Assembly (NCBI GenBank): GCA_943736015.1 | Contig: OX031068.1 | Location: 26,110,296 to 26,174,295 of the forward strand | From: Tridacna crocea | Taxonomy: Eukaryota > Mollusca > Bivalvia > Cardiida > Cardiidae | Reading direction: 5' to 3' | DNA length: 64,000 nucleotides | In this document: one piece after another, positions 1,563 through 60,620 of the stretch | How positions within the stretch are numbered: the first letter of the stretch is position 1 | Layout: every line of letters starts with the position of its first letter | The notes under the pieces: generated by a model | Seen by the model: the letters and a program-made list of their open reading frames with translations, nothing else | The model's database searches: none | What the model was told of the DNA's origin: nothing | Program-made: the position numbers and the translations under genes

Positions 1563-1700
1563 TTATCCTTTACCACATTATCCTAGGCTTTAAGGACTTT
1601 GAAAAAGAGGACTCATGAAAACATTGTATGAAAAGGATAAAATGATAACCAGCAGTTTTTCCCTCTCCACCAATATTTTGCTCCCCTAAAAAAAAAAATC
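1563..1700 (+). mobile_element. Group A MITE fragment
   Basis: TATCCTTTACCACATTATCC end and a worn hairpin; right arm lost after a poly-A run. Confidence 0.6.
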
Positions 1701-2089: not shown

Positions 2090-2250
2090 GACAGCAATAT
2101 CTAGTTTGTACAAGTTTAAGTTTTGTTATAGGGTAGAAAACATAGTTGGGAAAGGAGAAAGTGCTGGTTACCGGCATTTTCTTCTTTTCCCACAATGCTT
2201 TCAAACAGCATCTTTCTTTTAAAACTTGTGATTGTATGGTAATGGGTTAA
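2090..2250 (-). mobile_element. Group A MITE fragment
   Basis: Hairpin with CTGGTTACCGGC and an intact TGGTAATGGGTTAA end; left arm unrecognisable. Confidence 0.75.
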
Positions 2251-2454
2251 GTACAAATGACACAGAAGAAAAAGTGAAATTCATTTTTGACTCATGCAAA
2301 ACATTGTTGGAAAAGAACAGATTGTTTCCTTTTGTCACTGTTTTTGAATGATACTTACTGCAGAGAATACATACTAATGGCTCCGAATATCTTTCATTGT
2401 CTTTAAATCCTCATCTTATGTCTTACTAAGCCCTTTACCAAACAATTTCAAGTA

Positions 2455-2683
2455 TTAACTCTTTACCACACAAGAAAATTTTAGACCGGTCCAAATTGAA
2501 AGCATTTGCAGACGACAAAATAAAGGTGACTGAAAAATTGAAATTTGTTCTGGGAAGGGTAGAAAACACTGTGGGAAAAGGAGAAAATGCTGGTTACCAG
2601 CATTTTCTCCTTTTCCCACAGTGTTTTCAAAAGGCTTCTTTCTCAGGGACGTCAAAAGTAGGGATTGTGTAGTAATGGGTTAA
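2455..2683 (-). mobile_element. Group A MITE
   Basis: Perfect stem with paired ACACTGTG/CACAGTGT. Ends are of different subtypes (TTTACC left, AGTAATGGG right). An orphan end CCCTTTACCAAAC sits just upstream at 2430. Confidence 0.93.
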
Positions 2684-2802
2684 GCCAATAGAAGAAGACT
2701 TTTGAAAATGTTCTAGCAAAGGGAGAAATGCTCAAATGCACAATTTTCTCTACTTACTAAAATGCTTTTACAAAATTTATACGTTTTTCTTTCTCTTTTC
2801 AG

Positions 2803-2850
2803 ACGATACTTCAAACAATTCCAAAATGGATATTACCATTGATGATATTG
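2803..2850 (+). CDS. Gene 1 exon with likely start codon
   Basis: A pyrimidine-rich tract ending TTTTCAG precedes position 2803 and GTAAGT follows 2850. The ATG at 2826 has A at -3 and G at +4 and opens MDITIDDI plus one base of the next codon. The 23 bases upstream are also open in this frame (DTSNNSK), so the true start could lie in an unseen upstream exon; the acceptor shows at least one exact upstream exon exists, probably 5' UTR. Coding part is 2826-2850. Confidence 0.65.
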
Positions 2851-5800: not shown

Positions 5801-8800
5801 GATCGAGAAGAAAAATCAAGAGAAAATAGAAGAATATATTGTGAGTATTGATGGTCTAAATAAAGCTTGTATCAATGTAACAATCCAATGTTGAAGCCCT
5901 TTACCAAAGAAATCACATGTTTACAAGACATGTGAGACCTTTTAAAAACATTGTGGGAAACAGGAGAAAATGCTGGTAACCAGCATTTTCTCCTTTTTCC
6001 ACAAAATTTTCTACCCATATAGAAATTTTAAGGTCATTTGTACCACTTTCAAAATAGTTGTCTGTAAGTGTGTTCCATTTGGAAAGGTCTACAGTTTGTT
6101 GTTGGGAAAAGGTTTAAGATCCTGAGATAGAGAGCTTTTGAAAAAGGAGATAGTGCTCAACAGTGTTTTTATACCCGTGCAAATCAAATATTTTTGGGGG
6201 TATACTGAAATCAGTCTTGTCTATTTGTCCGTCCGTGTATCCGTCTGTGTACAAAATACTGGTAGTTTTGTATGGTGAACTCTCCTACAGTTTTGCTGCT
6301 ATTGTATTGAAAGTTTATTGATACATTGATCATATATTGAAGTTGTGCAAGACGCAGTTTTCAATCATTTACTCCTTATGATTCCAGGGTAATATCCCCT
6401 TTAACTTTAATTTTTTTTTTAACCCATTACCACACAATCCCTACTTTTAACGACCCTGACAAAGCAGACTTTAGAAAACATTGTGGGAAAAGGAGAAAAT
6501 GCTGGTAACCAGCATTTTCTCCTTTTCCCACACTGTTTCCTACCCTTCACAAAACAAAGTTCAAATTTTCAGTCACTTTTATTTTGTCGTCTGCAAATGC
6601 TTTCAATTTGGACCAGTCTAAAATTTTGTCGTTTGGTAAAGAGTTAAATTGCCTGTTTCTGTCAACAGCACTTGTGGGGGTATGGAGTCACATTCAGGGA
6701 CAGCTCTAGTTTACCCAGTCAAAGAAATATCCTGCCATTTGAGCCATGTGTCTGTAAACACTTTCAATATGGAGGATGAGTATGAAATTTGGCATCTTGG
6801 TGGAGTTATGATAAATGTTGTCATGATATTTATGACTTTTTATCATTTTACTAAATATCGAGATTTTATACTAATCCAAATTGAAAGCTCTTACAAAATC
6901 AATGGCAATTCATAGACTGGTAGCTAGAATGATTGGACTTTTCTATGCAAGGGTAGAAAACATCCTTGGAAAAGGGGAAAATGCAGGTTGCTTTCACACA
7001 CTAAGTGCCAATTCCAAGTTCTTTAAAATAACCCAAGAAAAGACACTTTTGAAATTAATGTTGGAAAAGGAGAAAGTGCTGGTGACCAGTATTTTCTCCT
7101 TTTTCCACAATGTTATCAATCATAACTATAAGAGGAAGTCATCTTTTGAGCTACATTTCAGGTGTTACCTGATACTGGTTTTTATTTGGACTAAAGTTTT
7201 GTGTTTAAAAGAGTCAAGAAACAATCATGGAGGGAACAGAAGGTAGAAAAAAGTTTTTGACAGAATTACATACCAGCAGAAAATTGATGTTTTCAAAATT
7301 TTGATTACTTGAAACATGTCATCTGCAGCAAGGAAAAAAATATTTTAGGTCAAGACTTTAAATTTGCTGCTTTTGTATTTCAGGCCATGAAACAAAGAGA
7401 AAAAGAAGAAGCAGAAAGATGGAAAAATGTTCCAGAATGGAAAAGGAAGTTATTAAAAGAGAAGGAGAGAGAAAAAGAAACTAAAACCATAGAAGAAATG
7501 CAAAAGGTATGCCAACCCTAAAACATTCAGTGAAGTTATTTATGCTAGGAGTTTCTGGTACATTGTTATATGTCTTTTGAATTAAAAGATATTTTAACTC
7601 TTTACCAAACGACATACCTTTAGACTGGCCCAAATTCAAAGCACTTGCAGACGACAAAATAAACAGAGCTCAAAAATTGAAATTTGTTTCTAGCAGGATA
7701 GAAAACATTATGGGAAAAGGAGAAAATGCTGGTTACCAGCATTTTCTCCTTTTCCAACAGTGTTTTCAAAAGGCCCTTATCTCAGGGTCGTAAAAACCAG
7801 TGATTGTTTAGTAAAGGGTTAAGCCAATAGAAAAGGCATAGAAAATTGACATGACAGTATGCTGACTTTCAGCTAATACCACTGATGGTTCCTCACCTTG
7901 TAAATCTTTACCACACAACAAACTTTTAGGCTAATCCAAATTGAATACATTTGCATATGACCAAACATATAATGTAGCATTAATTACAAATTTAGTCTGC
8001 AAAAGACTGGAAAGCCTTGTTTGGAAAAGATGAAAATGCTAGTTTCCAGCAGTTTCTCCTTTTTTTCCACATAGATTTCAAGTCTTTTTTCCTCGGAATT
8101 GTTAAAATTTGGATAATGTGGTGTAGGGTTAAGTGACTGGATGATGCAATGTCTTCCAGAGGTAGGATTTTGAATCCAATCAGCACAGACTGTCTCAATT
8201 CTTTGACTTTACTATGCCAATCAGAATCTTATTGCGAAATAGTGGATAGCCAATGAGATAGTGACAAAACATTGCTACAGATGGAGAAAAAGCTTTAAAA
8301 TGAAATAGCACACAAACACAAACCAAATGCAGGAATCACAGAAAATGTCAGACAAGTTACATACATAGTACACATATTGTGTTTAACTAGGGCAGGCAAA
8401 GAGTTAGGCAATAATTGCCTTATCATATCTGAATCTGTATCTTACCCAGAAACATGACTTCTAATTCTACTGGTGCCCCAGTGAAATTGGCCCTTTACCA
8501 CGCTATCCCAAGTTTTAACCATCATAAGAAAGAGGCCTTTGAAAACATGGGAAAATAAAAGAGGAAATGCTTAAAAAGTTTTCTACTTCATCACAGAAAA
8601 ATCCAATGATTTGAGTGACATAGAATTTGTGATATGCAAATGCTTTAACTCTTTGCCAAACAACTAGATTTTGGAGAAGTCCAACTTGAAAGCATTTGCA
8701 GATGACAAAATGAATGTTTATCAAAATTTGAAATCCAGCATTTTCTCCTTTTCCTACAAAGTTTTCAAAGGCTTTGTTTTTCAGGGTTGTTAAAAATCGG

Positions 8801-14800: not shown

Positions 14801-17800
14801 TCCTCAGGTTTGTTCTTTGCATGAGCATGATTTTGAATTAAATAGGTTTAACCCTGTACCAGACGATGAAATTTTGGCACATTCCAAACTGAAAGCATTT
14901 TTGCAGAGGACAATTTCAATGTGGCTCGAATGGTGCAATTGTGTATTGATAGGGTAGAAAAAATTGTGGGAAAAGGAAAAAATACTGGTTACCAGCATTT
15001 TCTTCTTTTGCCACAATGTTTTCAAAAGGCTTCTTTCCAAGGGTTGTCAAAAGTTGTGTGTGGGAAAGGGTTAATGAAAAAGCCTTATGATGTGAAAAAC
15101 AAGTAGACCGTGTTTAAAGACACAGTGGTTTCATACCTCTGGAAAATTTACTGTGCTATGTTAGCTTGCACATTTCGCACATGCTGACCTGGGCAAAAGT
15201 TGTTGCTTTTGATATGGTTTTCGCATTTCAAAGAACTATATTATTTCTTGGTCCAATTTCTTTTTTTTTTCAAAATGGGTCTATACTCTGTGATGACTAT
15301 TTAGTTTAATGCAATTGAAAGCTGCTTATTTGTTTTAACCCTTTTCCAAATGATGAACTTTTGGATGAGACCAAATTGAAAGCATTTGCAGATGACAATT
15401 GAACTCTTGCTGAAAAGATTATTTCTGTCTATGATAGGGTAGAAAACATTGTGGGAAAAGGAGAAAATGCTGGTTACCATTCCAGACACGTAAAAACCAG
15501 GGATTGTTTGGGAAAGGGTTAAATGACTTATACATTCAAGATTCATTAAGGTCAAGCATGCAATTCGATCTCGGCTTTGTACTGCTAGATACATGTAGCA
15601 TTTGCTGGTTACCAGCATTTGCTGCATTACCCACAATATTTCTAGAATGCTTTTTTTCTAAGGGTTTTTAAAGCTGGGATTGTGTGGTAAAGGTTTAAGA
15701 TGTATTGACAATAAAGGAAAGTGAGTTGCCAACTCAGTGATGTAAATCAGCCTTTTAGATAATATGGAAAATTTGAAATGAGCTCACCTGAGCACAAAGT
15801 GCTCAAGGTGAGCCATTGTGATCAGTCAGTGTCCATCGTCTGTCAGTCCTTACGAGCCCGATGTTGTGGGGTTAGGGGTAGCTGTACATTTAGTCTGTAT
15901 GGGGTGCATTCTGTCCATCATGTAGGTATGGGATTAGGGTTAGGGCTAGTGGGGTTAAAAAAGGTGCTCTTGTGGGGTTGTTTGGGTTGCATTGAATAAA
16001 GAGCAATTCGACCTCACAAGGTCCATCTTGTAAGACCGTCTGTCCGTTCACATTTACAAAAAAACTTCTCCTAAACTAACAATCAGATTTCAATCGAATT
16101 TCACAGAAATGATCCCTAGATGATGCACTTTCAAAATACTTCAATGATTTGAATTCCATGAAGAACTCTGGTTGCCATGGCAACTGAGAGAAAAAAAATT
16201 AAAAATCTTCTCACCCAAAACTGTAAGAGCTTGAACTTTCATATGTGGCAAGTAGCATCATCTAGTGACCCTTTACTGAAATGCTTCACATGATGGCCCT
16301 AGTGTTAAAAATGGCCCTATGTTGTGGGTTCTCAGATTTCACATAGAGGTAAAGAAGGAAATCTTTAAAGATCTTCTTGTTCCAAACCGTAAGGGCTAGA
16401 GCTGTCATATATGGCATGAAGTATCATCTAGTGGCCCTCCACTAAAATACTTCAAATTATGGCTTTAGTGCAGAAATTGGCCCCATGTTGTGGGGTCTCA
16501 GATTTCACAGAGATAAAAAAGGAAATCTTAGAAAATCTTCTCGACCCAAACTATAAGGGCTAGAGCTTTCATGTTTGGCATGCACATCATCTAGTGGCCC
16601 TCTACCAAACTGCTTCAAATTATGGCCCTTGTGTGAAAATTAACCCTATGTTGTTAGTCTTGGATTTCACATAGAGACAAGGAAGGAAATCTTTAAAAAC
16701 CTTGTCACAAATGGTAATATCCATGATGTAAAGAATTAGCCCTATGTTGTGGGTCTCAGATTTCACATGGCGATAAAGAAGGAAATCTTTAAAGATCTCC
16801 TTATCCCAAACGGTAATGGCCAGAGCTTTCATATTTGGCATGTAGCATCATCTAGTGGCCTTCTACCAAAACATTTCAAATTATGGCCCTGGTGTGAAAG
16901 TTAGCCCTATGTTGTTGGTCTCAGATTTCACATAGGGATAAAGAGGGAAATCTTTAAAAATCTTCTGTGAGCACTCTAGAGACCACATTTTCTTGCTAAG
17001 CTGAATTGAAAATTGGTTAGAATGTCTGTCTTGGTATAAAATCTCACATGAGTCTGCATTTAATGCTTGTTCGGAATATAACTTTGTCATCTCTAGTCAG
17101 AACGACTTCAAAATTGGTATGCATGTTTGGTGCGATATCACCGTGTTCAAGAACAGTAACTCTTACCTAGCATGGATTTTGAGTAATTCCACTTTGATCT
17201 TCATTTTAATAGAATTTTTTGCTTGTCTAGAGTGGAATTTTGAAGTCTCAAGTCAAATTGTTTGTTGCTTTGTCTACCTTTTGCAACTATTACACCTCCT
17301 TTACAACTAGCGGTGGGATTGCATATCTTGCGACAATTTGCCGCTCTTGTTTCATCATCATTAGCCCTTGAACCTCAATATTTGGTAATTATAGTCTTTG
17401 TTGTAGACCTTTGATGATTAGTACTCAGGTGACCGATATAGGGCCATCATGGTCCTCTTCTTGAGGTGACATAGATCAAGATATGTGTTGAATTATTGTT
17501 CCCTGCATAGACTGATAGCACTCCATGTTGTTGAAATCAAGAATTACAGAGAAAACTGATTTATAATTACATGAAACAGTTATGTTTTGCAATATTTCCA
17601 TTATAAATGATTTTTGAAAACTTTATTGAATCTCAAAAACTACTGAAATAAAAGGATTAATAGTCTCGTATATTTTAATATTTTCCACATTTGCATAACA
17701 GTACATTATAGAATTGAATTTATTTTTTCTCATGCACAGATAAAAGAAGCAGAAGAAGAAAGGAAGGCTAGAATAAAGGAGGAACAAGAAAGAGCAAAAG

Positions 17801-20800: not shown

Positions 20801-23800
20801 TTTTGGCAAGAAAACCCATAAGAGCGGAAAATGTAGATCTATGAACATATATTTGTGAAGCCAGATCTTGATCTGTACTGTGACAAAAAGCAATTATCAT
20901 AGCAACAGATCTGTAAGGGGTTGAAGTACATGTATATTAGATGTGGTCTTGCAAAAGGGGAAAGGGATTTAATGCATCTTTTTGATGCATTGTTTCATGC
21001 AGGTCATGATATGATGGTCAGTCAAAAATAAATGAGCACTACCTAATAACTTTTTAAAACTACATAGTAAACAAATTACGTGCTTATAATCCCTCAAAGT
21101 AATCTCCCCTGGACTGGATGACAGAACTCCATCTCTTTTTTGCAACGCTTGGATGCCGGTTGCTAAGCTACCAAAGTTGATTCGTCGTACCTCCCTGTTC
21201 ACGGCACACTCAAGTTCATCCAAACTCTCGTAGCGTATTCCCCGTAAGGGCTCCTTCAGTTTTGGGAACAAATCAAAGTCAGGGGGGCTCAAGTCAGGGG
21301 AGTAGGGGGGATGATCAAGAACTTCCCACTGGTATGACTCCAGCAGCTCCTTGACAACGTTGGCTTTATGGGGTGACGCCTTATCGTGTAAAATTAGCGG
21401 CGTGCGGTCAATCATCTCCTGGCGCCTTCGGCGTATTGCTGGACAAAGTATTGTTCTGATATACATCTTATAGTACTCTTTATTCACAGTCTCATTAGTT
21501 GGTACCCTGTGTGCGGTCATTACTCACGAAAATCATATGCAAAGATCATCAACATTTTGGCACAGATCTGACTTCGACGGAATTTTACGGGTCTTTGGGA
21601 GTTTTAGGTATGCCATTCACTGCTTTGGCGCTTTAATTCAGGTTCAAAAGACCGAATCCATGTCTCATCAATTGCAACGATTCGTTTTAACATTTCATTG
21701 CCATCTTCACCATATCTTTTTAGAAGTTTACGGGCAATGTTTACACGTTGGTGTGTTTCACTTTCCGACAGCATGTGGGGCACCCATCGGGCCGCGATCT
21801 TTCTCATTTGCAGACGTTCTGTTAAAATTCAATGAACTGACCCATGACTTATGTCCAACTCATGAGCAATTTCATCAGATGAATATCTTCTGTCATCGTT
21901 CAGCAGTTTTGCAACATTTTCCACATTTTCACCGGTCGTTGCCGACAAAGGCCTTCCGCACAGGTGCTTGTTGCTAACTGTATTGCGCCCGTTGTTGAAT
22001 TGTCTTACCCATTGGGTGATAGAACAATATGGAAGTACAAACTCTGAACCTACTTCCTCGAGTGCTTTCTGAATTTCTATTGCGCTTTTACCCCGCCTAG
22101 CCTCAATCTTAATATATGTTACTTGTTCGTCCCGCATCAGCATGAACGCACCGTCCGCCATGACAGTTTTGTAATGACGTCATATTTACATGACATCATG
22201 TAACGTTTTTTTCCCATGCAAGTTTTGCACGAGACATTAATGAACAATCGTGCCAAGTTTTGTTAGCCTACGTAAAAAAATAAAAAAGTTATGAGGCAGT
22301 GATTAATTATTTTTGACTGACCCTCATATAGTTATGGATCCATTATATCCATTTTCTCTAACAAATGACTGAATACTGTGGCAGACTGGTCCTTAGACAT
22401 ACAGGAAATTAAACAAATGCAAAAATCTCTGGCCCAGGTCAGCCTGTGCAATCTGCTCAGGCAGATCAGGATTGGTACTCTTTGCAGGTGCATTCTTTAC
22501 CACACAAGAAAATTTTAGACTGGTCCAAATTGAAAGCATTTGCAGATGACAAAATAAAGGTGACTGAAAAATTGAAATTTGTTCTGGGAAGGGTAGAAAA
22601 CACGGTGGGAAAGGAGAAAATGCTGATTACCGGCATTTTCTTCTTTTCCCACGGTGTTTTCAAAAGGCTTCTTTCTCAGGGGCTCAAAAGTAGGGATTGT
22701 GTTGTAATGGGTTAAGCCCCTTTTTCACAGAGCATGCTCATAATTATGTTTATTATGTAAATCCACCTGTTTATAACCTCTTATTGTCAATGAATGAATC
22801 ATGTTAACTGTTAGCTCACCTGTTGAAATAAAATTGCTTGGCAGCATGTGAAATAAGGCAATCAGGTATGGGAAACCATGCTTTGTATTTGCATTAACCC
22901 TTTACCACACAATCCCAACTTTTAACCACCCTGAGAAAAAAGCTTTTTGAAAACAGTATGGGAAAAGAAGAAAATGCTGGTAACCAGCATTTTCTCCTTT
23001 TTCCACAACGTTTTCTACCCTTCCCAAATCAAATTTCAATTTTTCAGTCACATTTATTTTGTTGTCTGCAATTGCTTTCAATTTGTCCAATGGCAGAGTT
23101 AATTAACCTATTACCACACAATCCCTACTTTTGAGGACCCTAAGAAAAAAGCCTGTAGAAAACATTGTGGGAAAGGAGAAAATGCTGGTAAGCAGCATTT
23201 TCTCCTTTTCCCACTATATTTTCTACCCTTCACTAGACAAACTTTTAGTCACATGAATTTTGTCATCTGCAAATGCTTTCAATTTGGAAAAGCCTAAAAT
23301 ATTGATGTTTGGTAATGAGTTAACCATGGCTATTATTTGAAGAAAACTCAGGTACATTGTCATAGCTCTGTTCCTGTATGCATCTTTCTTGATGTCATGC
23401 TGTTTTCTTATATCTCTGTGTTTAACACTTTACCACACAATGCTGACTTTTGAAACCTCTTGAAAAGAGTGCCTTTTGAAAACATCATGGGAAAACCAGA
23501 AAATGTTGGTAACCAGCATTTTCTCCATTTCACACAATATTTTTTACTCTTCACAAAGCAAATTTCAAATTTTCAGTCATTTTCATTTTGTCTTCTGCAA
23601 ATGCTTTCGATTTGGGCAAGCCTAAAATATTGTTGTCTGGTAATAAGTTAATGAAGATATAAACCTCAAACATTGGTTACTTCTTAACTCTTTACCACAC
23701 AATCCCGATTTTTAACAACCCTGAGAAAGAGGCCTTTTGAAAACATTGTTTGGAAAGGAGAAAATGCTGGTAACTAGCATTTTCTCCTTTTCCTACATTA

Positions 23801-32800: not shown

Positions 32801-35800
32801 AAAATTGACAATTGTTTCGGGAAAGGTAGAAAACATTGTGGGAAAAGGAGAAAATGCTGGTTACCAGCATTTTCTCCTTTTCCTACCATGTTTTCAAAAG
32901 GCTTCTTTCTCAGGGTCGTTAAAAGTCGGGATTGTGTGGTAAAAAGTTAACCCATTACCAAATGACAATGTTTTAGGCTTGTCCAAATAGAAAGCATTTG
33001 CAGCCGACAAAATAAAAGTGACTGAAAATTTGAAATTTGTTTTGTGAAGAGTAGAAAACATTGTGGGTTATCCCATTACTACACAATCCCTACTTTTGAC
33101 GCCCCTGAGAAAGAAGCCTTTTGAAAACACTGTGGGAAAAGGAGAAAATGCCTTTTATTTTGTCGTCTGCAAATGCTTTCGATTTGGACAAACCTAAACT
33201 TTTGTCGTTTGGTAATGAGTTAAGGGTGTGGGTTCAAGCCCAAGCATCCTTTTGGGGATGTCACCCTCATGGGGAACCAGTGGTGACGTTAAAAAAAAAT
33301 GGAAAATTAATCTTTCTAGATAGAGTTGACAGAACCTTGGCATCATGGGCATAAATGCACAATACATGACTATTAATGTCTATTAGCCCTTTAAATCTTT
33401 ACCAAACAACAAAATTTTAGACCCTTCCAAATTGAAAGCATGTGCAGACTAAAAAATAAATGCAACTCAAAAATTGAAATTTGTTTTCAGCAGGGTAGAA
33501 AACATTGTGTGGAAAAAAAGAAAATGCTGGTTACTAGGTTGTAATTTTACTTTGACCTGCAACAAGCTGTAAAGTGCATTTGAATAGGAGTACAAATACT
33601 TTACAATCATATATTGAATACTTTCGAATTTTTAAATAAATTTCAACATATTGAACGGAATTAGCATATTTCCTGGATATCATTATAAGACAATAAATGT
33701 CTGTAGTATTAGACCAGTAGTAATCAAACCCCTCCCCCCCAACCATCACCTCGACCCTACCAACCTACCCATGTATTCTTCCAATTTTCCATACATATAT
33801 TATTAATGTGTTGCTTTTTGCCCATTGTGCAGTTAATTCTTTTTTTCCCTCCATAATGTGCAGGCTATTTTTTTCGCTCTATACTTCTTTTTATCAACAA
33901 TAAAAAAGAACAAAATGAATACGTTGAATAGTTCATGGAATGATGAGAAATGGCTAAACGGTGGCCAATTAATGGTCTAAGGGAGAAAACTCGCATTCAC
34001 TTGTATCTTGAAGTTATATCAGAGTTGCCGTTCTTGGTTAGTACAGCCTAAAACCAAAGACGAATAAAATGTTATTGTGAAAGTCATAGAGACGTCTGAT
34101 ATAAAAACGTTTCTTGAGGCTATTTAGTGTGATTATTATTATTATATTCCCATGAAAGTTTTATGAATGTCTACTGGCTCGCGACCAGTGGCGGCCAAGT
34201 ACCAGTGGCGGCCATTTCTATGATATCGCGTTTGTGCATACATAAGCATATCAAAGCTCTTGGTCATATTAAAAAAGAAGAAACGGTGTGTTAGATAACC
34301 AATAAAAGTTGAAATTTGACGCAATGTAAGTAAAGATATAAACATGTATCCCCTGTTACCCCCCATGTGTCAAAAAAATCACTTCCGGGGGACTGACCTC
34401 TATCATTTTTATCGCCGATTGAAGCCTCAAATAATCCAAAAAAAAACAGAGTTTCAGTATCAAAAATGCGACATGTACGATGATATTTCACTTACCTCAT
34501 CAGTTAGTCCATTATTTATGTGTTAAAGTATTATATCCAAATAATAAACGAGAGCCACAAATCACACCATGCTTGCAGAAGGCAAGCGTTTAATGACGTC
34601 ATGCAGAGGCATAGCTATCCAGTTCAGTCAGTAACTATATTCTTTTTCATAATCCTCATCATTGCTTACCAGGTTTTCCCTTGCACGGTGCTCAGACAAA
34701 AATGATATTTATAAATGAGCACTATTCTTGATTATCATATAAGTTTCATTTGTTATTATTTTATATTTTGATTTAGATCATTTAATTAAAAAAATACTTG
34801 TAAATCCATAACATTTATTGTATTCCTGTACGACTTTCCACAGGAATTTGACATTCAATAACCACAATAAATGATAACATGTGAAAAAACTCTGCCCTAT
34901 ATATAAGGGAGATTTTTTTTCATATTTTATCATTTATTTTGGTTATAGAATGTCAAATTCCTGTGGACTTAGTTTTTTCCCATTCTTCAACAGATCCCTG
35001 CAATCCTCATCATTGCTTACCACAGTCAAAACCAAAAATTTGACCCATTTCTGATTGAGAAAATATGAAAAAAGTCATCTCAAGCCAACACAATTTCACT
35101 AACTGAATTTCAATGTTCAGAATGTTCTTCATATTAGAAAAAAATTGCTACCACAACATATCAACGGTTTTGAAAATATTGAAGATGAAAAAATGAGACA
35201 TTTCAGTCTGTTACGGAGGTGAGTTTTTAATACTGATTGCATTTTAGAATGGAAAAATATCAAAGTTTTAATGCAATCACTGAACACTATAAACTTTTTT
35301 ATTCTGTATACTTGGAGCAATCATAAATTTAAAAAAAATCCTTACTAACTTATTCCGTAGTTCTAAATTATGCAAGGAAAGAGTCGTTGCAAAAGATTGT
35401 TATAACTTTTTCAAATGAAAAATTATACAAACACATTTGGTTTACTCTCAGTAATTAAAACAATGTCAGATTAGAATATGAGACTTTTGACTGTAAAGTT
35501 TGAACATGTATTATTTCAAAGTAAAGTAGTTATTTGTAAATTGGCCATTATATTTTAGGTCAATTATTAATTATGAACGCCATGTTTCCGTTACGGAGGT
35601 GAGCCGAATATCACACTTAAATAATAAACTCAATACTTGTCCTGAAAAATCTTTCTAAACATTTTCACTCATAAGTAATTCCTAAAACACATTATTAACT
35701 GTAAAACAATAAATACAATAACAACAACAAAGTACATGTATTTCTGTCAATATCAGAGTTGAACTTTAAAGAAATCAATAGAATGAGAACCATCTTTTTG

Positions 35801-38800
35801 TTCGATGAGTATATGTTTTTATACTTGTATGTCCTAAAAACCACAAGAAGCCATGCTGAATCAACTTTGCCTATACTTTGAACCATGGAAGAAAATCTAG
35901 TTGTAAAGAATTTGTTATCGTTAGTTATCTACTGATTGAAATATTCATAATGTGTCCGTTACGGAGGTGAGCTAAACTTGATACATCAGGGTCCGTATTC
36001 ACCAACTACTCTTGAAAATATTATTAGTTTTACTAGTATTCCCCAGAATTTTCTACAATTGAAAGTCACACAACTCATCTTCTGATTGGCTGAACCAAAT
36101 GCCGTAGCCGATTAGAAGTAGATCTTCTGTCACTTTCAAATGTACACATGAAGTCTTTGAGAATTAGTTCTTAAGAATATTTGGTGAACAAGGACCCTAA
36201 ACACAGTTAAAAAGTGCTTATTATGAGGCATCTTGCCATCAGTGTGCTTCAAGACAGCGATGAATAAATGGAAAAACATATAAGTAACACTTCAAACTTT
36301 CGCATTTTCAAAATGACATACAGATCTATATTATATAATCTGTTAATAGTGAAACATGCACATTTGATTATTTCACTAAATATTTATATGTATTTACTCC
36401 ATATCAATGTAATGCTAAATGCAGTCTTTGTAGTATGTTGACTCTTTAATCACAGTTGACAATACAAGAGGCTTTCGTTTATCGTGCAGATCAAGATAAG
36501 ATTGCACAGAATGTGTAGTCTGATCTCTGATCTGCACTGTACATTTCTTTAATGTGGATTAGAACTGAACTGTCCCTCCATTGTGCAGCTGAACTGTATG
36601 TGTAGCCATTCAGAAGAAAAAAGTTACTCATTTGTAGAGAAAGGGTAAAAAGTAAACTAGCGCAATGTGAAATCACTATGAGAGCAATCTCTAGTTAACC
36701 AATGATTTCTCTGTTATGAAAGTGATAAACTTTCGACTGTTGTGTCTTTCAGAACTTAAACTCAAATAAACAGAAACTGTTTTTTTTTCAAAGCTTGTAA
36801 ACCTTTATGTTATTATACTGTAATGGAAATCTAATAACTAAAATAACATCAAATCGCCTGCAAGTCACACATTTCAGCCTTTTCTTCAAGAGCAACTTCG
36901 ATTTTCTTTTGATTATTGTCTCTCAATTTGAAACTCGGTATTTGGTTAAGAATTCATACATTGTTTATTTGTTATACATGTATTTTTTTTTTCTAACTGA
37001 TAGCGTAATTTTACTTTCTTTTGGAATGAAATGAACCACAAATGCATATAATTAACCATTATATCTTGTAAATGAGTATATCATAACCCCTCTCTACATA
37101 GCAGCCATCAATATTCCATTCTCCCATCCGTAATATATTTTCTCACCACCGTAACAGTTTTTTTGATGAACAATTAAACTTGTATAAATCGATAAAACTG
37201 TTAAACTTTACAACGTTCCAACATATTCTATGACTTTTATAAAAAATCACAGCATGAAAGTGTAATTCTATATGAATTTATTCATGCTATGCAGTTTCAA
37301 CCACTTGTTTACCGTTTTCTCACCTCCATAACGGATTCATGGAAAAAAGATACATCATACAACGTTTTTTTCTGTGTACAGAAGAAATATAAACGTAGAC
37401 ATGTTGAAATGAATTAATTTTACCATGCCCTCTTTTAACCTGGACATCATTTTGTTAACGTAACAAAAAAGATTGTGTTTATGATATAAATTATCACCTC
37501 CGTAACAGTAGAAAGGGTCGAGGGTATTTTATTGCAGGACCTTAAAATCTATTCTTGTTCACTTTTAAGCAATATTTCTACCGTGGTAGATTGTGTCTTC
37601 GCAAAAAAAAAAAAAATTTCATACTGTGGGATCAAAAAGAACAAATTTCAAGACTTAACCTTGTTTTTATCAATTCTTCTTTCTTGTAAATCTAAACTTT
37701 TTTCGTCAGTAAGGTCGTAGTTAACGTCATATACATCGCACATGATGTAACAGTGTTTTCTAAGAAGCAATTTGTTGTTATATTCGCACTAGTTACAGGG
37801 GTATTGCTCAAAATTTTACTTCGTTACGGAGGAGAGAAGTTACGGAGGTGAGAATAAAAAACGAATTTCAACCTATTGTGTCCGAATGAAACGAAATAAA
37901 AATTGAATAAATGCAAAAATGGGGGAAATACGACATGGAGATATGGTGACTTGATATAGAAAACAAATGTAATCACAATGAATAGGACATTTTCTAGTTA
38001 CGGAGGTGAGGTTTTAAATCGCGACAAAACGTGGTGTGACTTCATGCAGCGATTTTCACATGTTCTTCGCGCTGATTCACATTTTTCTGTATATATCAAA
38101 GGAATTTCATGTTTTATGAAGAAAACAGCGCATTTTCTACAGCTCTACACATGTATTAACACAGTTTGCACAGGTCGTAAAAATCGTTACGGTAGGTGAG
38201 GTCTATTTTGGCGACATCGAAAAAATCTGCCGGAAGGAAAAAATAAGCAAATCAGGAACAAAAAAATGTTCTTAGTTAGTTGATAGCTACCATTTCTTTA
38301 CCTTAGTAAAATAACTGTATTCGTTTAAAGTTTCATATTTAAAATTTCACAGCTATAAAATGTCAATTTGTTGTGGAGACATTCGAAAATTCGCTACTAG
38401 CGGCATTTTGACCTCAAAATTTCTTTATTTTTTTGGCAAATAGATTATCTTCTTTATCAATAATTGATTAAAAGTATTCCTTTGAATATTATTTTCACAT
38501 ATATAGTTCACTAAATGTATTTGTGGCAGTTTAAGATCGTCGACAATACTGGCGACACTGGTTTTGCGTAAATGGGTCAAATTTTTGGTTTTGACTGACC
38601 AGGTTTTCCCTTGCACGGTGCTCAGACAAAAATGATATTTATAAATGAATAAATGAATGATATTTTAACGGCAAGACTTTACATGGCTATATTAGGCCCA
38701 TATAAGTATAGAACACCCAACAAAAAACGTTATGTAACGTTTGCTCTTTTTCAAGTACAATGGTCAACAGGGAGTGGGGAATAAATGAGCTTGGCCCACT

Positions 38801-41800: not shown

Positions 41801-44800
41801 GATATCATTATATGACAAGAAATGTCTATAGTAGTAGACCTGTAGTATCAACCCTTTACCAAACAACCACTTGTTTTTAAAATCCTGAGATAGAAGCCTT
41901 TTGAAAACATTGTGGGAAAAGGAGAAAATGCTGGTCACCATTTCCCACAATGTTTTCTACCCTGCTGGAAATAAATTTCAGTTATTTAGTTACAGGGATT
42001 TTTTTTCATTTGCAAATGCCTTAAAATTGGACAAGTTATTTTTTTTGTCTTTTGGTAAAGAGTTAAAGTATTTGGAAAATAACCATAGGCATAACTTCTA
42101 TTACGCACACCGCTCCTCGGATACCCCGGGGTCTCCCTATTTGCTACGCTACATCGACCCCTGGGACAATTAGTTGAATTTCCTTCGCTTTACCGCTAGC
42201 CGAATGCTGGCTTTTCATTGGTTCCATCATCATTTTGTGATGGGCGAGTGTACTGTACGCTATGACGTTTCGTATCGATTTTCGGCGGCTCGCTTTACCG
42301 CTGGCCGAATGCTGGCTTTTCATTGGTTCTATCATCATTTTGTGATGGGCGAGTGGACTGTATGGTATGACGTTTCGTATCGATTTTCGGCGGCTGATTC
42401 AAAGTTTTATTAGTCAATTGTCCCAGGGTCGATGTAGCGTAGCAAATAGGGAGACCCTGGGGTATCCGAGGATGACGCACACCATGCATGTGCGTAATGT
42501 TAAAAAAAATCAAGAATAGGTCATAGGTTGCATCTTTTCGCATATTTCTCAGTATGGCCATTTTCTAAAACAGCCAAGATTTAAAAAAAAAAAAAATTCT
42601 GCCTCAGAAGAGGCTTAGAGGGGGAGACCCGCTCTCGTGCTCTTTCTCTTCCCCCTCCCCTCGTGCCTACGGTGTGCATATACATGTAATTCACTTTTTC
42701 TTGGTTACGCCCCTGATAACCTGCCCAAAAAACTTACCAACCTTTCTAATCTTCCATCCATCAATTATTAATTTGTTATTTTTTCCCAGTTATGCAGGTC
42801 ATTGTTTTTCTTTCTGCTCTATAGTGGTTTTTATATAAAAAAAAAAAAAGGAGGGAGAGAACGAAAAAGCAACATACTCATGGAACTGTGAAAAACCGCC
42901 TAACTGTGACCGATTAATGGTCAAAGGGAGAAAATTCGCATTCACTTGTGTCTTAAGTTATATCAGAGTTGTCGTTCTTGTTTGACAGTACAGCCTAAAA
43001 CCAAAGACGAATGTAAGATATGTCATTCTGGAAGTCTCACAGACGATCGATAATCAAACTATCTTTTTAGCCCATTTAGTGAAATTATAATTATATTCTC
43101 ATGAAATTTTAACGAATCTCTATAGTCCCAAAGAAATTACGATGGCAGACTAATGAAAAGGTAGTTGAATAACATGAATTATATTTTTTTTACTACCAGT
43201 TGGTAGTCTCCCTTGCATTTCAATTTGTAAACAACACATCCGCCAAATTTCAAATTGGGAATAAACAAGTTTGTGTATCGAGATAAGACCCAACATAGTA
43301 AATAAGAGTTCATGTAAGTAATACAACACTTGAAAATAAATCATTCGATCACTAGAAGAATCCCTAAAAATTGAAAAAAAATGTACATTATAATCTAGGT
43401 CAAGGCGTCATTCAAGGTCATCGACATATAGGCTACCGTTAACCAATCCATTTCAATAGATCTGCCTTTAAATAACTGGTAGGAAGTAAAAATCCGGTGT
43501 GTTGATCTAAGCTTATGCTTTGCAAAAAATCTGTCCTGACGATTTAGTGTCATGTGTATCCAAAATGTGCGAAGAAAATTTTCTATCAGATCGGCTACCA
43601 AGAACCATTTCATGAACCGCCAGTAGGCCAACATAAGTATATAATTGAATACCGCTAACTGTAGGTGGAAATCATTCAAGAAATATTATTATGATTCTCC
43701 CGAGTATCACATGACAGAAAGTTCATTTTGGGAAGAATTTATTGTTGATTCCCACAGGCGATTCGTTTGGTTGAGAATTTAAGCCGGTGTAACGTTGTAA
43801 AGTGATCCCCATAGAATAATGACCCCCCGGTCATTATTTTATATAGAATATGGACCGGGGGGTCCATATTCTTTATAAAATAATGACCGGGGGTCCATAT
43901 TCTTTATAAGATAATGACCGGAGGGTCCATATTCTATATAAAATAATGACCGGGGGGGTCCATATTCTATATAAAATAATGACCGGGGGGTCATTATTCT
44001 ATGGGGGTCACTTTACAACGTTACACCGGCCATTTTGGCATTTGGGGAGCAGACATGTCGCTATTATAAGGGAGGTCACTCTGAGTTATTTTTACACTGA
44101 GACTGTACGAGTTTTCTCCCTTAGACCATAAAAATAAAGCAAGAATCCTATTCATTAACTCACACTTGTTCGATAAAGGTGAAATGAATAATCTATTATT
44201 TAATGAATGATAAGCAGACAATCGACTGCTTATGAAATTATGGTGGTAAAAGAAGAAATTGCTGGAAGATTTTAGAAGTAATTTATTATTGTTGACATAA
44301 AATTTTCACTAACTTTCCCGGTTGCTTCAACTTATATTGGTTGTCTTTTTTTCGGACCAAAATGAATTTTAAATTTCTTTCTTAAAGTTTGTTTTTGTTA
44401 TTTTACTACCTCATCCTTACTGTGATGAATTAATGAAATAGATCATTTCAGTATGGAAGTATGTCCATAATACTTTTAAGTTATTTGATTTTTTTTTTTG
44501 TGTGTGTGTGTGTGGGGGGGGGGGTCGGGAGAATATGTTAGGAAATAGCGGTCAGTGTAACTAGTTTACCATGCAACAAAAATGTGGACTTATCCAAACT
44601 ACTTATCATGAGCATAAAGTACTTCTAATAAGCTTAAATATTAGTTTGTTTTACAAATTCCTTCATCAGGGAGGAATTATTGTATAAAATCATCTAGTCC
44701 TGCATTCACCAACCATTCTTAATTTCAGTTTGAGTCTTCTTATAGATTTGAAATACAACCTTTGATAGGCTAAACCATTTAGTTACTGGTACTTTCAAAT

Positions 44801-55890: not shown

Positions 55891-58800
55891 GCCTGACCTT
55901 CAGAACACACCTTCTGAAAATATTGTAGGAAAAGGAGAAAATGCTTAAACCAGAATACTCTCTCTTTTCCACTATGTTTAGACTTCAAGCTTAAAGCCAT
56001 TATCATAATATATGGTCAGCACAACCATTAAAATTATCTCCCCTTGAAATTCATTGAAATGTTAAATGTTGCAAATTTCATTATCTCTTCAAAGGTCCTT
56101 TTGCTTGGACATCACTCACCATGGGTAGAAGCTACTTTTTCAACAAAGAAATTGTTGACAGAAGGCTTCTGTATGGAACCTTGCAAATTTGGAGTTATCT
56201 CCCTTAAAACTGGCCAAGCAGCAATGTCAGTTGGTGATTAACCCTTTCCCAAATAATCCCCGATTTTTATGACCCTTGGATAGAAGCATTTTAAAAACAT
56301 TGTAGTAACCAGCATTTTCCCCTTTTCCCACAATGTTTTCTCCCCTGCTGGAAACAACTTTCAATTTTTGAGTTATGTTCATTTTGTTGCCTGCATGTGC
56401 TTTCAATTTCATATCCATGAATTTGCTCAATGGAAAAGAAGCTTTCAATAATAGTGAGTAACGTCCCAGTCAGGAAAGTTCTAGAAATTGTGTGATAAAT
56501 GGAAAAAAGCCAATTTTGTTGATTTTCAAAGGGAGATAACCTGACCATTCCTTATATCAGAAATATCACCAACAATTAAATTATTTCTTTGATAGAAACA
56601 AAGTTGAGTTTGTGAAGTTTTTCACTCCACACAGTTTCCAATTTTGATGACCTTGAAATAAGAAGCCTTTTGAAAACATTGCGGAAAAAAGAAAAAAATG
56701 CTGGTAACCAGCATTTTCTCCTTTTTTCACAATGTTTTTTAAATTTCAATTTTTGAGTTATGTTTATTTCGTGATCTATAAGTAACCAGTCTAAAATTTT
56801 GTTGTTTGGTAAGGGGTTAACATGTTTTTCTTTGTCATAACAGAGCAGTAGTCACTGAAGAAAAATGACAGACAGATGAAGAGATATTGATGATAAAAAT
56901 CTCTATAAAGACTTAAAGAAAACCCTGTGGCACTTGAAGAAAATGATTTATATGCCAAAGGTTCTCAAATGCCTCATTTTCTTTGAACTCTTTACCACAC
57001 ATCCCAATTTTTAAAGGCCTTTGAGAAAGAAGCCTACAGAAAACATTGTTGGAAAAATGGAAAATGCTGGTAACCAGCATTTTTCACCAGCATGTTCTTT
57101 TTCAACAATATTTTCTATTATGAAATCAGAAATCATCATATTACGAAGATTAAATCTGTTGCAGATGCTTTGAATTTGGTCTAGTCCAAAAGTTTGTTAT
57201 TTGATAAAGCTTTGAAGAGAAAGTTTCTGAAAACAATTTTTTCAAAAGGCTTCTTGCACTGGGTCAGACTGTGGAGTAAAGAGTAACATGAACTGATGGA
57301 ATTTGTCTTTAATAGGAGATAAAATATTGTGTAAAAAGGGAGAAAAGGTCTGGTTACCAGCCTTTTCCCCTTTTCCCTCAACGATTTGATAAAGATATCT
57401 TTGGTAGAGCTGAATAGGAAAGGGTTGAACCACCAGTTCTGACAGAAATACAAGATGAATGTTTAATCAGTTTTAAGGGAGATAACTCCATTTTTGCGAG
57501 GTTTTTAGATACAGACTAGTTATCATGAATTTGTTTAGTGGGAAAGAAGGTTTCAATAATAGTTAGTAACGTCCAAGTCAGAAAAATTCTAGAAATTGTG
57601 ATAAATGGAAAAAAAAACCCGATTTTTGGCGACTTTCAAAGGGAGACAATCTGGCCATTCTTTACTGTTAAGTAGAATCAAAGGACTGATAGTCCTGAGA
57701 GTCGTCTGGTGGGAAATGTGTTTGAAGTTTTATCTCTTACTAAATTCCCAAAGATGACCTAACCATAAGATGGTATTTTGAAGCATAATATCTAAGTTGG
57801 AGAGTGCTCTAATCTTAAATCACACATATAAATATTAAAATATGCTCACGAAGAAGCACATATGATTTATCTTCAATACTATTTCCAACGCCACGATCTG
57901 GGTTACAACGGCAAGATTAGAACTGCTTTAAATGAAATATAACACATTAAGAAGATTTATCGTGGCTTCGCATATGTCATCCTAGATTATAATTCAACAT
58001 CACATATTTGCGTAACAAATAATGACCGTACATGACATGTATTTTTAAACTTCTGAATACTGTCTGTTTACATGTAACTTACCGTCTAAACCCAGAAAGA
58101 AAAAGGCCATTAACTATTATTTAAAGTCTACGGAAGGACAAAAATCTTAAACTTGTTCTAGTTGAAAGCATCTGCAGGCAACAAATCACACTTGGTTTAG
58201 ATGGTTGGATTTTTCTACGATAGGTTAGAAAACATCCTTGAAAAAAAAAAAGGAGAAAATGCTGATATACAGCATTTTGTCCTTTTTCCCATTCTGTTTT
58301 CTACCCTTACCAAGACAAATTAGTAATTTGATCTCATAAGATCCATCTTTTAATCATGTAAAGTTTGGTTTTCGTCTGCAGGTACTGTTAATTTAACCTC
58401 TTTCCAATTTTGTGATCCGGTAAGAAAAATACGGCAGGAACCATGTAGCAACAATTACAGATCAGTTCTTTTTGCGGTAATCTCAGCTTCCTTTTATTCA
58501 GTCTCAAATGCTTTCCTCACCACATTGCGTAGCATTGTGGTTACTGGTTACCACTATGAAACTGGCGTAGTTCACTTGACGTAGTTCAAGGATCAAAAGT
58601 TCTTCTTGCTTTCAGGAAATCCATCTATTAGACGCAGGTTGCGGTACAGCTAGTTACAGTTTGAAGCTCCTGGAAGCTGGGATCGGTAAAATTAGCGTGT
58701 TTGATGCTTCGGACAAAATGTTAGAGGTCGCCAGAAACAAACTAGACGGCCATCGTCAAGGAAACAGAATTGGCGATATCAAACATGGTGTTTTGCCGAC

Positions 58801-60620
58801 CATACCGTTTGGTGATGGATGCTTTGATGTCGTTATGATAAACATGGTGAATATTCATTGTTGTGGTTTTGTTTGTTTAGTGTTTTGTGTCATTTGCTTT
58901 AACCCTTGATCTTTTGGCTGCTAAGCTCGACTCACTGATCTTTTGCAGACAGTGTAGATCAACATCAGACTGCACAGAACCTGCAGTCTAATCTTTGATC
59001 TACACTGTCCGATAAGGGAATATTATTCCCCAAACATAACTTTGAATCAGTAATATTTATGTTACTAACATCGAAATGAAAATTTACCATTAGTTATACA
59101 GCTGGATAAGAGTTAATTTGCTGAGTAAGTGAAATTAAACTTTCAAGTAGAAAAGTAAGAGGCCAGATTTTGCTAGCTCAAACTTTTTTTTTTCTTTTTG
59201 GAGGGGAGGGGGGGGGGGGGGGGGGAGAAGGGGGTTGTGGATATCTTCTTAATCTTTTATCAAACAATTCCTGGTTTTTACGACCCAGATGAAGAAGCCG
59301 TCTGAAAACATTGCTGGAAAATGAGAAAATGCTGGTAGAGGAATAAAACTTTCCAAAAAGACTTGCATCAATCCTAGGAAAAAATATTTGATGTGTAGAG
59401 TGCAACATCTGTTTGCTTTTAACTTTCTTACAACTTGTAGAAATGATACATGCATGTACCTGGAACATGCATTTCGCTATTTTCTGTGTAATTTGATGTA
59501 CAGAGATATTAAAAGTAAGTTTGAGTATTTCAGTCCATACACATACAGCAGATAGCTAAAACTTGGAACAGTTATGGTAAAGGACAACAGCATCGTAATA
59601 ATCGGCCTGCAACACGCGAAGAAGGGCATTTGGACATTTGCGTAAAGTGTCGGCCCGGATCAGCCTTCGTCATCCGCACAGGCTAATCCGAGAAGGCAGT
59701 TTGCTACTACATTCGATTTTGTCCTACAGTAGACCTGCACAAAACAGAAAATAAGAGAAGAACGGAAAGTGTCGTCTCAGATTAGCCTGCTCGGACTGCG
59801 CAGGCTAATCCGAGATGACACTTCCCGCAGATGTCCGAATGCCCCTTTTCGCGTATTGGAGGCCATTTATAGTGGCCACACTCTGAGAAAAGGGGATTTA
59901 AATTCATCTGCAAAAACTTTCGACTCGGGTCAACTGATGCTGTCTGTGCTGGATTACCTGTATGGTAACTTTTTGCTTGAAGTAGTTGTTAGCAAAAATT
60001 GGATTTTCGGATCCATAACAATTCAATGGCTTGCGTGTTATTATACACTATGACATTTCTCGCGAGAGTTACCGAGAACGGGCTCTTTGAAGCGGTTAAA
60101 TCAACGATCTACCTGATTTATAATATTGTAGGTATTTCATCACTTGAAGGTCAAGGACGAATACGAAAGAACGAAAGCAATATCTGTAACATTCCAAGAA
60201 TCGAAACGTGTCTTGAAACAGGATGGTATTATACTAATTATGACATGCTTCCCCGAGCAGTACTACGGGTATTGGTACACAAATATTGCACCGGAAGTGG
60301 CCGCAAGGAAAGCAGTTTTCTTCCGGTCACGTGAATGCTTTTCTAGATTACTGGCAGATAATGGCTTCTCAAACATAGAGTTTATCAAAATTTTGGGTTC
60401 AAGTTGGGCTCGGAGCTACTGCGATCCCGAGGGACCTTTAAAAGAAGAATGGAGGAATATGGATGCGTATTGGTCGCTCTTCACGAAGGAAGAGTTGGAG
60501 ATTGCATTGCAGAGAGTTGACGAAATGAAGTCAGCAGGAACTCTTCACCAGTTTATGCTAGACAATGATAAATCAATGACTGATGGAAACATGGTGTTAA
60601 TCAGGGGTATAAAGCAGTAA
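54396..60620 (+). CDS. Gene 2: class I SAM-dependent methyltransferase, 3 exons
   Basis: Join of 54396-54512, 58616-58846 and 60132-60620 gives 278 residues, a normal length for a Methyltransf_11/25-type enzyme. FDRMAHNYDE (7-16) is the usual pre-domain helix. LLDAGCGT (about 43-50) is motif I for SAM binding, FDAS (68-71) the acidic loop that binds ribose, FDVVMINM..FHHL (109-121) motif II and beyond, and SKRVLKQDGIILIM (140 on) motif III. It should transfer methyl from SAM in the cytosol, but the substrate cannot be read from sequence. The C-terminal half carries a FRSRECFSRLLADNGF helix typical of the family. Junctions are GT-AG and phase 0. No frameshifts or stops are seen. Confidence 0.9.
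54549..54775 (-). mobile_element. Group C MITE after gene 2 exon 1
   Basis: 36 bp past the donor; loop TTGCTCGTTACGAGCAA, right end TTGGGAACGGG. Confidence 0.93.
54870..54985 (-). mobile_element. tRNA-like SINE head (minus)
   Basis: On the minus strand, TGCGTGGCCTAACGG (A-box like) is followed by GCAGGTTCAATCCT (B-box like). Boundaries and tail are unclear. Confidence 0.5.
55030..55420. repeat. Local duplication copy 1 with (CT)n
   Basis: A (CT)n tract (55073-55109), a decayed MITE hairpin (55125-55205), ATTATCTCCCTTTGAAAT and the candidate minus exon recur in the same order at 55760-56235. Confidence 0.75.
55313..55457 (-). CDS. Candidate minus-strand exon, unknown protein
   Basis: Read on the minus strand, TTCACTGTGCAG precedes 145 open bases and GTGAGT follows CATG. 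The open frame reads DSVYRVFKERTIQQPTDVTA, then GPVLRETTPNLQGFILNN and on to ASTHG. A diverged copy with the same donor lies at 56120-56232. It includes the AAGGGAGACAACTCC string that recurs in molluscan repeats, so it may be repeat sequence that merely looks like an exon. Protein not recognised. Confidence 0.25.
55760..56235. repeat. Local duplication copy 2 with (CT)n
   Basis: Same order of modules as copy 1, with a longer, interrupted (CT)n (55778-55890) and an extra 45 bp near 55975. Ends at a MITE. Confidence 0.75.
56120..56232 (-). CDS. Candidate minus-strand exon, second copy
   Basis: Paralogue of the candidate exon at 55313: minus-strand PTDIAAWPVLREITPNLQGS, extra residues IQKPSVNN, then FFVEKVASTHG and the same CATG|GTGAGT donor. 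Its 5' part is missing because a MITE starts at 56238. Open frame kept in both copies is mild support for coding or recent duplication. Confidence 0.22.
56238..56412 (+). mobile_element. Group A MITE, deleted and truncated
   Basis: ACATTGTAGTAACCAGC shows loss of the first stem half; right end lost at the join with the duplicated block. Confidence 0.82.
56412..56565. repeat. Duplicated block, copy a
   Basis: CATGAATTTGCTCAATGG, TTTCAATAATAGTGAGTAACG, and TTTTCAAAGGGAGATAACCT recur at 57523-57665. Origin unknown; bounded on the left by a truncated MITE. Confidence 0.7.
56618..56820 (+). mobile_element. Group A MITE
   Basis: Left end eroded (CTCCACACAGTTTCC), right GGTAAGGGGTTAA. Confidence 0.83.
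56993..57215 (+). mobile_element. Group A MITE, old
   Basis: TTGA at both ends; extra CACCAGCATG inserted in the second stem arm. Confidence 0.8.
57216..57430 (-). mobile_element. MITE fragments
   Basis: A right-end piece (TTTTCAAAAGGCTTCTTGC to GGAGTAAAGAG) and a hairpin with GTCTGGTTACCAGCC ending AGGAAAGGGTTGA. Confidence 0.6.
57523..57665. repeat. Duplicated block, copy b
   Basis: Roughly 85% like copy a by eye (ATCATGAATTTGTTTAGTGG and on). Confidence 0.7.
58125..58425. mobile_element. Palindromic group A form with two right arms
   Basis: Left side is the inverted right arm (GAAAGCATCTGCAGGCAAC), centre a hairpin (TGATATACAGC), right side a forward right arm (CTACCCTTACCAAGACAAA, TTTTCGTCTGCAGG). 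No left arm is present. Confidence 0.65.
58616..58846 (+). CDS. Methyltransferase exon 2, SAM-binding core
   Basis: TGCTTTCAG acceptor and GTGAAT donor, 77 codons. Contains glycine-rich motif I (DAGCGT), FDAS, and CFDVVMINM up to the junction. The base composition is visibly less AT-rich than flanking sequence, as expected for a constrained exon. Confidence 0.92.
58945..59010. repeat. GTAGATCA-family palindrome, best copy
   Basis: GACAGTGTAGATCAACATCA opposes TGATCTACACTGTC; arms of about 28 bp. Lies 99 bp after the exon 2 donor of gene 2. Confidence 0.75.
59203..59237. repeat. Poly-G tract
   Basis: GGAGGGGAGG then a run of about 17 G; a candidate G-quadruplex former within gene 2 intron 2. 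Confidence 0.8.
59251..59336 (+). mobile_element. Group A MITE left half
   Basis: TCTTTTATCAAACAATTCC to GAAAATGCTGG, breaking at the loop. Confidence 0.75.
59604..59874. mobile_element. Foldback element, copy 2 (best preserved)
   Basis: Arms of roughly 110 bp: GGCCTGCAACACGCGAA at the left, inverted as TTCGCGTATTGGAGGCC at the right, and a second pair around CGCACAGGCTAATCCGAG / GCGCAGGCTAATCCGAGA. Folds into one long hairpin. Confidence 0.85.
60132..60620 (+). CDS. Methyltransferase exon 3, C-terminal half
   Basis: ATATTGTAG acceptor at 60131; the frame starts VFHHLKVKDEYERTK and continues 162 residues to TAA at 60618. VFHHL joined to exon 2's VVMINM restores the classic motif II region, which fixes the junction. 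The end, DNDKSMTDGNMVLIRGIKQ, is partly duplicated downstream at about 61012-61072. Confidence 0.92.
   Translation, partial: VFHHLKVKDEYERTKAISVTFQESKRVLKQDGIILIMTCFPEQYYGYWYTNIAPEVAARKAVFFRSRECFSRLLADNGFSNIEFIKILGSSWARSYCDPEGPLKEEWRNMDAYWSLFTKEELEIALQRVDEMKSAGTLHQFMLDNDKSMTDGNMVLIRGIKQ

Follow-up and report, generated by a model that had tools for sequence, protein, structure and literature searches.

A non-coding transposon family of the bivalve Tridacna crocea with an internal array of 14-bp sites that appear to be selected during its spread

Kilobase-length elements without genes are usually regarded as passive freight between two ends. A stretch of 64,000 nucleotides of Tridacna crocea (assembly GCA_943736015.1, contig OX031068.1, positions 26,110,296 to 26,174,295 of the forward strand; hereafter the window) holds at positions 35023-38597 a non-coding DNA transposon of 3575 bp, whose ends begin CAGTCAAAACC and which contains an ordered array of eleven copies of a 14-bp site, GTTACGGAGGTGAG. 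Why should an element that encodes nothing carry such an array? The answer that we consider likely is that it belongs to a non-autonomous family of transposons with terminal inverted repeats (TIRs) that is moved in trans, and that the eleven 14-mers are binding sites of the transposase or of an accessory protein. Elements of this kind are already known; the layout of the sites and the evidence for selection on them are the new part. The element and its boundaries are the following.

35023..38597, + strand (orientation arbitrary): non-autonomous DNA transposon, 3575 bp (TIRs, target-site duplication, empty paralogue, 20 further copies read with both ends)
35023..35050, + strand: left 28-bp TIR, CAGTCAAAACCAAAAATTTGACCCATTT
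38570..38597, - strand: right 28-bp TIR, complement of CAGTCAAAACCAAAAATTTGACCCATTT
35019..35022: target-site duplication ACCA, left copy (sequence reading)
38598..38601: target-site duplication ACCA, right copy (sequence reading)
34651..34718, + strand: empty paralogue of the insertion site, 68 bp (flank self-match)

The initial annotation had described identical 28-bp TIRs, an ACCA duplication with an adjacent empty copy and an absence of coding sequence, and all of this holds. The two TIRs agree at 28 of 28 positions, with termini CAGTC...GACTG, and ACCA stands on both sides. The empty paralogue matches the left flank 35002-35022 over 21 bp (100%) and the right flank 38595-38648 over 54 bp (98%), the latter match starting 3 bp inside the element; it is separated by 283 bp from the start of the matching left flank, and the target is read through once in it, uninterrupted. 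CATTGCTTACCAGGTTTTCCC is found once in the window, at 34660, where the element is absent. An inverted repeat (34837-34967; 53 bp, 92% complementary, 25-nt loop) lies between the empty paralogue and the element. The element interval is AT-rich (31% GC), and its observed/expected CpG ratio, 0.83 versus 0.42 for the window, is what a young insert should show. Among the stop-to-stop frames that overlap it, the longest has 79 aa, and none of its eight frames of at least 60 aa gave a Pfam match above cut-off, a sub-threshold hit being obtained for one of them (E 0.0087, 16.6 bits versus a cut-off of 22.8). Rfam at gathering thresholds gave no match in the window, and no tRNA was found there by ARAGORN.

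A search of the window for GTTACGGAGGTGAG with at most two mismatches gave nine matches, five exact and four with one mismatch, all within the element, where shuffling leads one to expect 0.12 (largest value 1 in 100 shuffles). Two further sites are visible, at 37121 (three mismatches) and 38186 (one extra base). About ten sites, forward, then reversed, then forward, had been noted initially; eleven are recognisable, ordered +++ ---- ++++ along the element.

35210..35223, + strand: 14-mer site 1, exact (pattern search)
35590..35603, + strand: 14-mer site 2, exact (pattern search)
35958..35971, + strand: 14-mer site 3, exact (pattern search)
37121..37134, - strand: 14-mer site 4, ATTACGGATGGGAG, three mismatches (sequence reading)
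37142..37155, - strand: 14-mer site 5, one mismatch (pattern search)
37319..37332, - strand: 14-mer site 6, one mismatch, C to T at CpG (pattern search)
37493..37506, - strand: 14-mer site 7, one mismatch (pattern search)
37823..37836, + strand: 14-mer site 8, one mismatch (pattern search)
37839..37852, + strand: 14-mer site 9, exact (pattern search)
37997..38010, + strand: 14-mer site 10, exact (pattern search)
38186..38200, + strand: 14-mer site 11, one inserted base, GTTACGGTAGGTGAG (sequence reading)

After poly-A, the six top 9-mers of the element are parts of the GTTACGGAGGTGAG motif, and the commonest 10-mer of the motif occurs seven times in the element, a number that 200 Markov simulations do not attain (at most six). 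The flanks of the sites, first described as unrelated, are mostly so; the exceptions are a match of 22 out of 23 bp between two sites and some shorter extensions.

The source assembly (1.049 Gb, 31 contigs) was searched with the element, the best 40 of 3274 candidates being scored, and the family counts given here are lower bounds. At least 19 matches, window copy included, span query positions 1-3575 at 96-100%, and the same search also returned fragments and diverged copies. That the element is transposable had been proposed from the window alone, a search of the genome for others with the same end being suggested as a check; the proposal is borne out by 20 further young copies read with both ends (21 young-like loci were read, L108, with one end only in its stretch, being left out of the counts). 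Both 28-bp ends are perfect in 18 of these 20, and their flanks show identical 4 bp in 16, 5 bp in two (AATAT and ACATA, by eye) and no exact match in two. With the window copy counted, target-site duplications of 4 bp are present in 17 of 21 copies and of 5 bp in two of 21, and their sequences vary (ACCA, AAAA, TGGA, TGCA, TTAT and others). The first 23 bp of the TIR, with at most two mismatches, occur at 75 places in the genome versus 0 for the reversed control; 46 of the 75 form 23 facing pairs, with two pairs of other lengths (1812 and 4854 bp), and a search with a variant end gave one further pair, 3.9 kb apart (C11:19806788-19810722). This is a mobile element family and, apparently, a recently active one.

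Young copies are 3174-3592 bp long, differ by 1.1-2.3% from their majority and by a mean of 2.6% between pairs. Eighteen older copies are 80-92% identical over their alignable parts (L111, a duplicate of L110, L121, a 96% truncated copy, and L128, a 40-bp remnant, were left out of this set). A complete old relative of 8.1 kb, L127, starts at C6:54440036, has an ATTG duplication on both sides and contains nine sites within two mismatches, in the same order as in the window element. The coexistence of young and old copies, and the nine sites of L127, suggest that the family amplified in at least two rounds and that the site array predates both.

The 14-mer is family-specific. It had been considered that it might prove common genome-wide outside such elements; its exact form has 128 matches in the whole genome versus 2 for the reversed control, and 94 of the 100 listed matches lie in or beside family copies by our own tally. 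The other six are singles (C2:28707709, C5:31251061, C5:65542902, C7:40452012, C9:21005405 and C9:42645488). In viral contigs the 14-mer was found in 81 stretches, with a single match in each of the 80 listed, which we read as chance. The initial annotation had the site either selected or spread; its spread as an independent mobile sequence is not supported, six of the 100 listed matches being outside the family, and selection within the 14 bp is moderately supported by the variants found among copies.

We compared variants in 21 young copies, window copy included, over the 154 columns of the eleven sites. Variants present in one copy (private) presumably arose mostly after insertion, and those present in at least two (shared) were presumably mostly inherited through transposition. 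By random relocation, private variants are as numerous in the sites as expected (17 versus 18.1, fraction at or below 0.44), whereas a single shared variant was found for 8.4 expected (fraction 0.0021, 20000 relocations). A Fisher test of shared and private variants in the sites gives P 0.0095. The sites are rich in CpG, and this should raise both numbers; CpG-aware expectations are higher, at 11.8 for shared variants (Poisson 0.0001) and 22.3 for private ones (Poisson 0.155). The 14-bp flanks of the sites show no depletion, with 16 shared variants versus 16.3 expected. The depletion persists under shifts of the whole site pattern that preserve its spacing (0.0045), with shared defined as at least three carriers (0 versus 4.9 expected, fraction 0.0082) and for the nine sites of the pattern search alone (1 versus 7.0, fraction 0.0101). 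It also persists on exclusion of the window copy, from which the site set had been defined (0 versus 8.5, fraction 0.0017). Among the old copies, the sites contain a single column in which most of them depart from the majority of the young ones (5.0 expected, fraction 0.028), and private variants are again at expectation (56 versus 58.2, fraction 0.41). Selection is thus, at a moderate level of support, confined to the 14 bp of the site. Because shared variants are depleted and private ones are not, propagation appears to require the sites, with no preservation of them after insertion. Such a pattern would arise if copies with damaged sites were unable to spread and nothing maintained the sites once inserted; the signal is moderate, not overwhelming.

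Several observations weigh against selection on the sites or against a mobilising protein that reads them. When all young-copy variants are pooled, the sites are only marginally low (18 versus 26.6 expected, fraction 0.055), and the depletion of shared variants among old copies is weak (11 versus 16.1, fraction 0.14). Site mismatch in the 18 old copies, 0.117 versus a background of 0.135, is not significantly reduced, values as low being reached in 948 of 5000 relocations and in 40 of 272 shifts. The sites were picked because they resemble one another in the window copy, P values are of moderate size, and the division into shared and private variants was made after this simple conservation test on old copies had proved non-significant. 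Finally, an autonomous partner was not recognised at the loci read, and no transposase is tied to these ends. The first and third of these points, like the 23-bp stretch common to one pair of sites, would agree with 14-mers that have no present function and are left over from an internal repeat or from conversion of one site by another, the depletion of shared variants being due to chance. We hold this to be very unlikely: the depletion is found in the sites and is absent from their 14-bp flanks, it remains when the window copy is removed, when shared variants are defined more strictly and when fewer sites are used, and the site flanks are mostly unrelated.

The spacing of the sites brings in another explanation. 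The sites lie 187-3177 bp inside the element. Steps between sites of the left block are 380 and 368 bp, and each of the two right-hand blocks opens with a pair of sites at a distance of 16-21 bp, after which the steps measure 158-189 bp. The best period is 173.5 bp with a vector strength of 0.88, as high a value being reached by 13 of 2000 random placements; this test used nine sites, the close partners at 37121 and 37823 being dropped, and its period was chosen after seeing the data. These distances approximate one nucleosome repeat (174, 177, 158 and 189 bp) or two (368 and 380 bp), and the array occupies both orientations and is not placed in the last 200 bp. Such an arrangement could serve a factor of the host, acting in transcription or on chromatin, by which the chromatin of the element is opened or its activity driven, the transposase reading only the TIRs and selection being indirect. 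We regard this as unlikely, given that only six of the 100 listed exact 14-mers are outside the family, which would be unusual for the site of a general host factor, and that the spacing test is post hoc. The same layout, about one site per nucleosome repeat over about 3 kb, may instead form an obligatory loading platform for the mobilising protein; this we judge quite unlikely. If true, it would represent a recognition signal at the scale of chromatin rather than a compact subterminal one, with selection acting only between spreading copies.

The sites also resemble splice donors (GGAG|GTGAG), their 3' half apparently fitting a donor consensus, and they could act as such, or as other signals at the RNA level, in an element transcribed within genes. 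This is hardly credible. The sites are found on either strand, this reading leaves the conserved 5' half unaccounted for, and sites 4 and 8 lack GT in their commonest young forms (ATTACGGATGGGAG and GTTACGGAGGGGAG, respectively) yet are present in old copies. Among the eight old copies covering site 4, G comes first in six and GTTACGGATGGGAG is found in four.

We favour recognition of the sites by the mobilising system itself. A transposase supplied elsewhere would pair the two 28-bp ends and insert the element with a stagger of 4-5 bp, as deduced from the duplications. Either this transposase or an accessory protein that belongs with it would read the 14-mers, loading along the element, and copies with damaged sites would leave fewer offspring. 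We infer that a protein binds the sites, that it belongs to the mobilising system and that an autonomous partner existed recently; the initial annotation had suggested a transposase or a zinc-finger protein, either of which may bind the 14-mer. The internal array is thus seemingly selected during spread and not later, a proposal that is directly testable, and copies alone may reveal the binding site of a mobilising protein. An apparently recently active transposition system is also flagged in this genome.

L127 differs from the young element by about 3 kb of extra sequence between element positions 1920 and 1959. This internal segment contains a frame of 268 codons (211 from the first Met).

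L127:3630-4262, - strand: frame of an unfamiliar basic protein, MGLSNAERQRKWRQ... (ORF reading)

Its only Pfam match, Chorion_3 (22.2 bits versus a cut-off of 22), is taken for low complexity. Frames of 629-845 aa at six places contain weak relatives of the protein (23-39% identity, E 1.9e-5 to 6.4e-4), and C17, C16 and C5 have shorter frames with closer relatives; a protein search of viral contigs gave none. The long frames look transposon-encoded because an 816-aa frame recurs three times, and none of them is near a listed TIR. The C5 relatives are located 12-22 kb from an exact TIR, and their direction relative to the element is opposite to that in L127. For these two reasons we do not claim the L127 frame as the gene of the partner. 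The extra 3 kb and the weak relatives in long frames raise the idea that the array possibly once had a subterminal position in a larger, autonomous ancestor that has since lost its central genes; it stays an idea, as the C5 orientation disagrees and no long frame is near a listed end. Reading of 16 of the 29 unpaired TIR places showed what are apparently old copies with nested inserts, remnants and a truncated young copy, and no partner; three of the remaining 13 adjoin known family pieces. A Pfam scan of nine long frames beside diverged copies, those of L117 and L118 not included, gave for some of them retroelement-like matches that are weak and stay below cut-off (zf-RVT, Exo_endo_phos, zf-CCHC, RVT_1), and for the rest weak unrelated matches or none.

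With inverted ends, duplications at independent loci and no transposase gene of its own, the element is a class II, non-autonomous TIR DNA transposon, and its superfamily is unassigned. En/Spm (CACTA) elements have CACTA termini, a 3-bp target-site duplication and arrays of a 12-bp TnpA motif that are dense, subterminal and needed for mobility. The present family resembles them in having a motif of similar length (12-14 bp) that is peculiar to the family and occupies both orientations, and differs in lacking CACTA termini and 3-bp duplications. The piggyBac target is TTAA, and duplications vary here. The termini here are CA..TG, where piggyBac termini are given as CC..GG (PMC10045372), and piggyBac was rejected. 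So were Ginger1/Ginger2, for which TGTNR termini and TIRs of about 40-270 bp are described (PMC2836005) versus CAGTC and 28 bp here, and IS481EU, with reported termini TNT..AYA or TGT..ACA (PMC10045372) versus CAGTC...GACTG. The length of the element and of its young copies excludes the miniature inverted-repeat transposable elements, reported to measure a few hundred bp, mostly less than 500 bp (PMC10741241).

As in maize Ac/Ds (hAT), non-autonomous copies are defined by TIRs together with multiple short repeats. AAACGG subterminal hexamers of Ac are reported to bind transposase cooperatively, three copies having been shown to be required (PMC3260210). In contrast to Ac, with hexamers within the terminal 200 bp and an 8-bp duplication (PMC3260210), the site here is 14 bp long and is found in eleven copies over 187-3177 bp inside the element, and the duplications of 4-5 bp exclude hAT. 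AcademX is credited with duplications of 3 or 4 bp (PMC10045372) and Academ with an expansion in bivalves (PMC10294476); the 4-bp duplications of most copies agree with this length, and the two of 5 bp do not. The Academ transposase comes with an XPG-like nuclease; XPG_I was found at three places genome-wide, none at a listed TIR, although the domain may be too diverged. Sola, for which 4-bp duplications are described and short TIRs allowed (PMC10741241), resembles the family in both respects and is defined by its transposase, which is absent from the element. Both Academ and Sola are present in bivalves (PMC10294476) and agree with the family in duplication length; neither can be confirmed, since this would need a transposase.

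The TIR was found in no stretch of viral contigs and in no prokaryote genome contigs. Neither GTTACGGAGGTGAG nor its complement was found in the literature text searched, no transposon paper was among the matches listed for the 11-bp element end or its complement, and no paper turned up in a literature search for a mollusc element carrying 14-bp repeats.

Two further features lie inside the element.

35988..36198: inverted-repeat segment, ends GGGTCCGTATTCACCAA...TTGGTGAACAAGGACCC (self-match)
36484..36550: piece of a dispersed repeat (further window copies at 58952, 60997, 23952 and others)

The first is probably a miniature transposon that inserted into the element ahead of the amplification of the family, and a partly matching stretch (about 72%) is present in L127.

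The window is also a dense cluster of one miniature transposon, an inverted-repeat element of about 230 bp (for example 6419-6652: TTAACCCTTTACCA...TGGTAAAGAGTTAA, with a palindromic TGCTGGTAACCAGCA core). Its 83 window copies cover 17224 of 64000 bases, and 75 copies cover 12777 of 299715 bases of other, partly overlapping genome loci. A frame at 20972-21520 (- strand, 183 aa) matches the DDE_3 endonuclease (E 1.2e-7), and we take it to be a Tc1/mariner-like transposase remnant. An exon-like methyltransferase domain (Methyltransf_25, E 1.4e-10) is located at 58616-58849 (+ strand); another exon of this methyltransferase may be represented by the 158-aa open frame at 60144-60617, for which Pfam gave nothing at E 0.01. 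Tandem repeats are found at 16201-16703 (166 bp, 3.1 copies) and 42185-42395 (105 bp, 2.0 copies).

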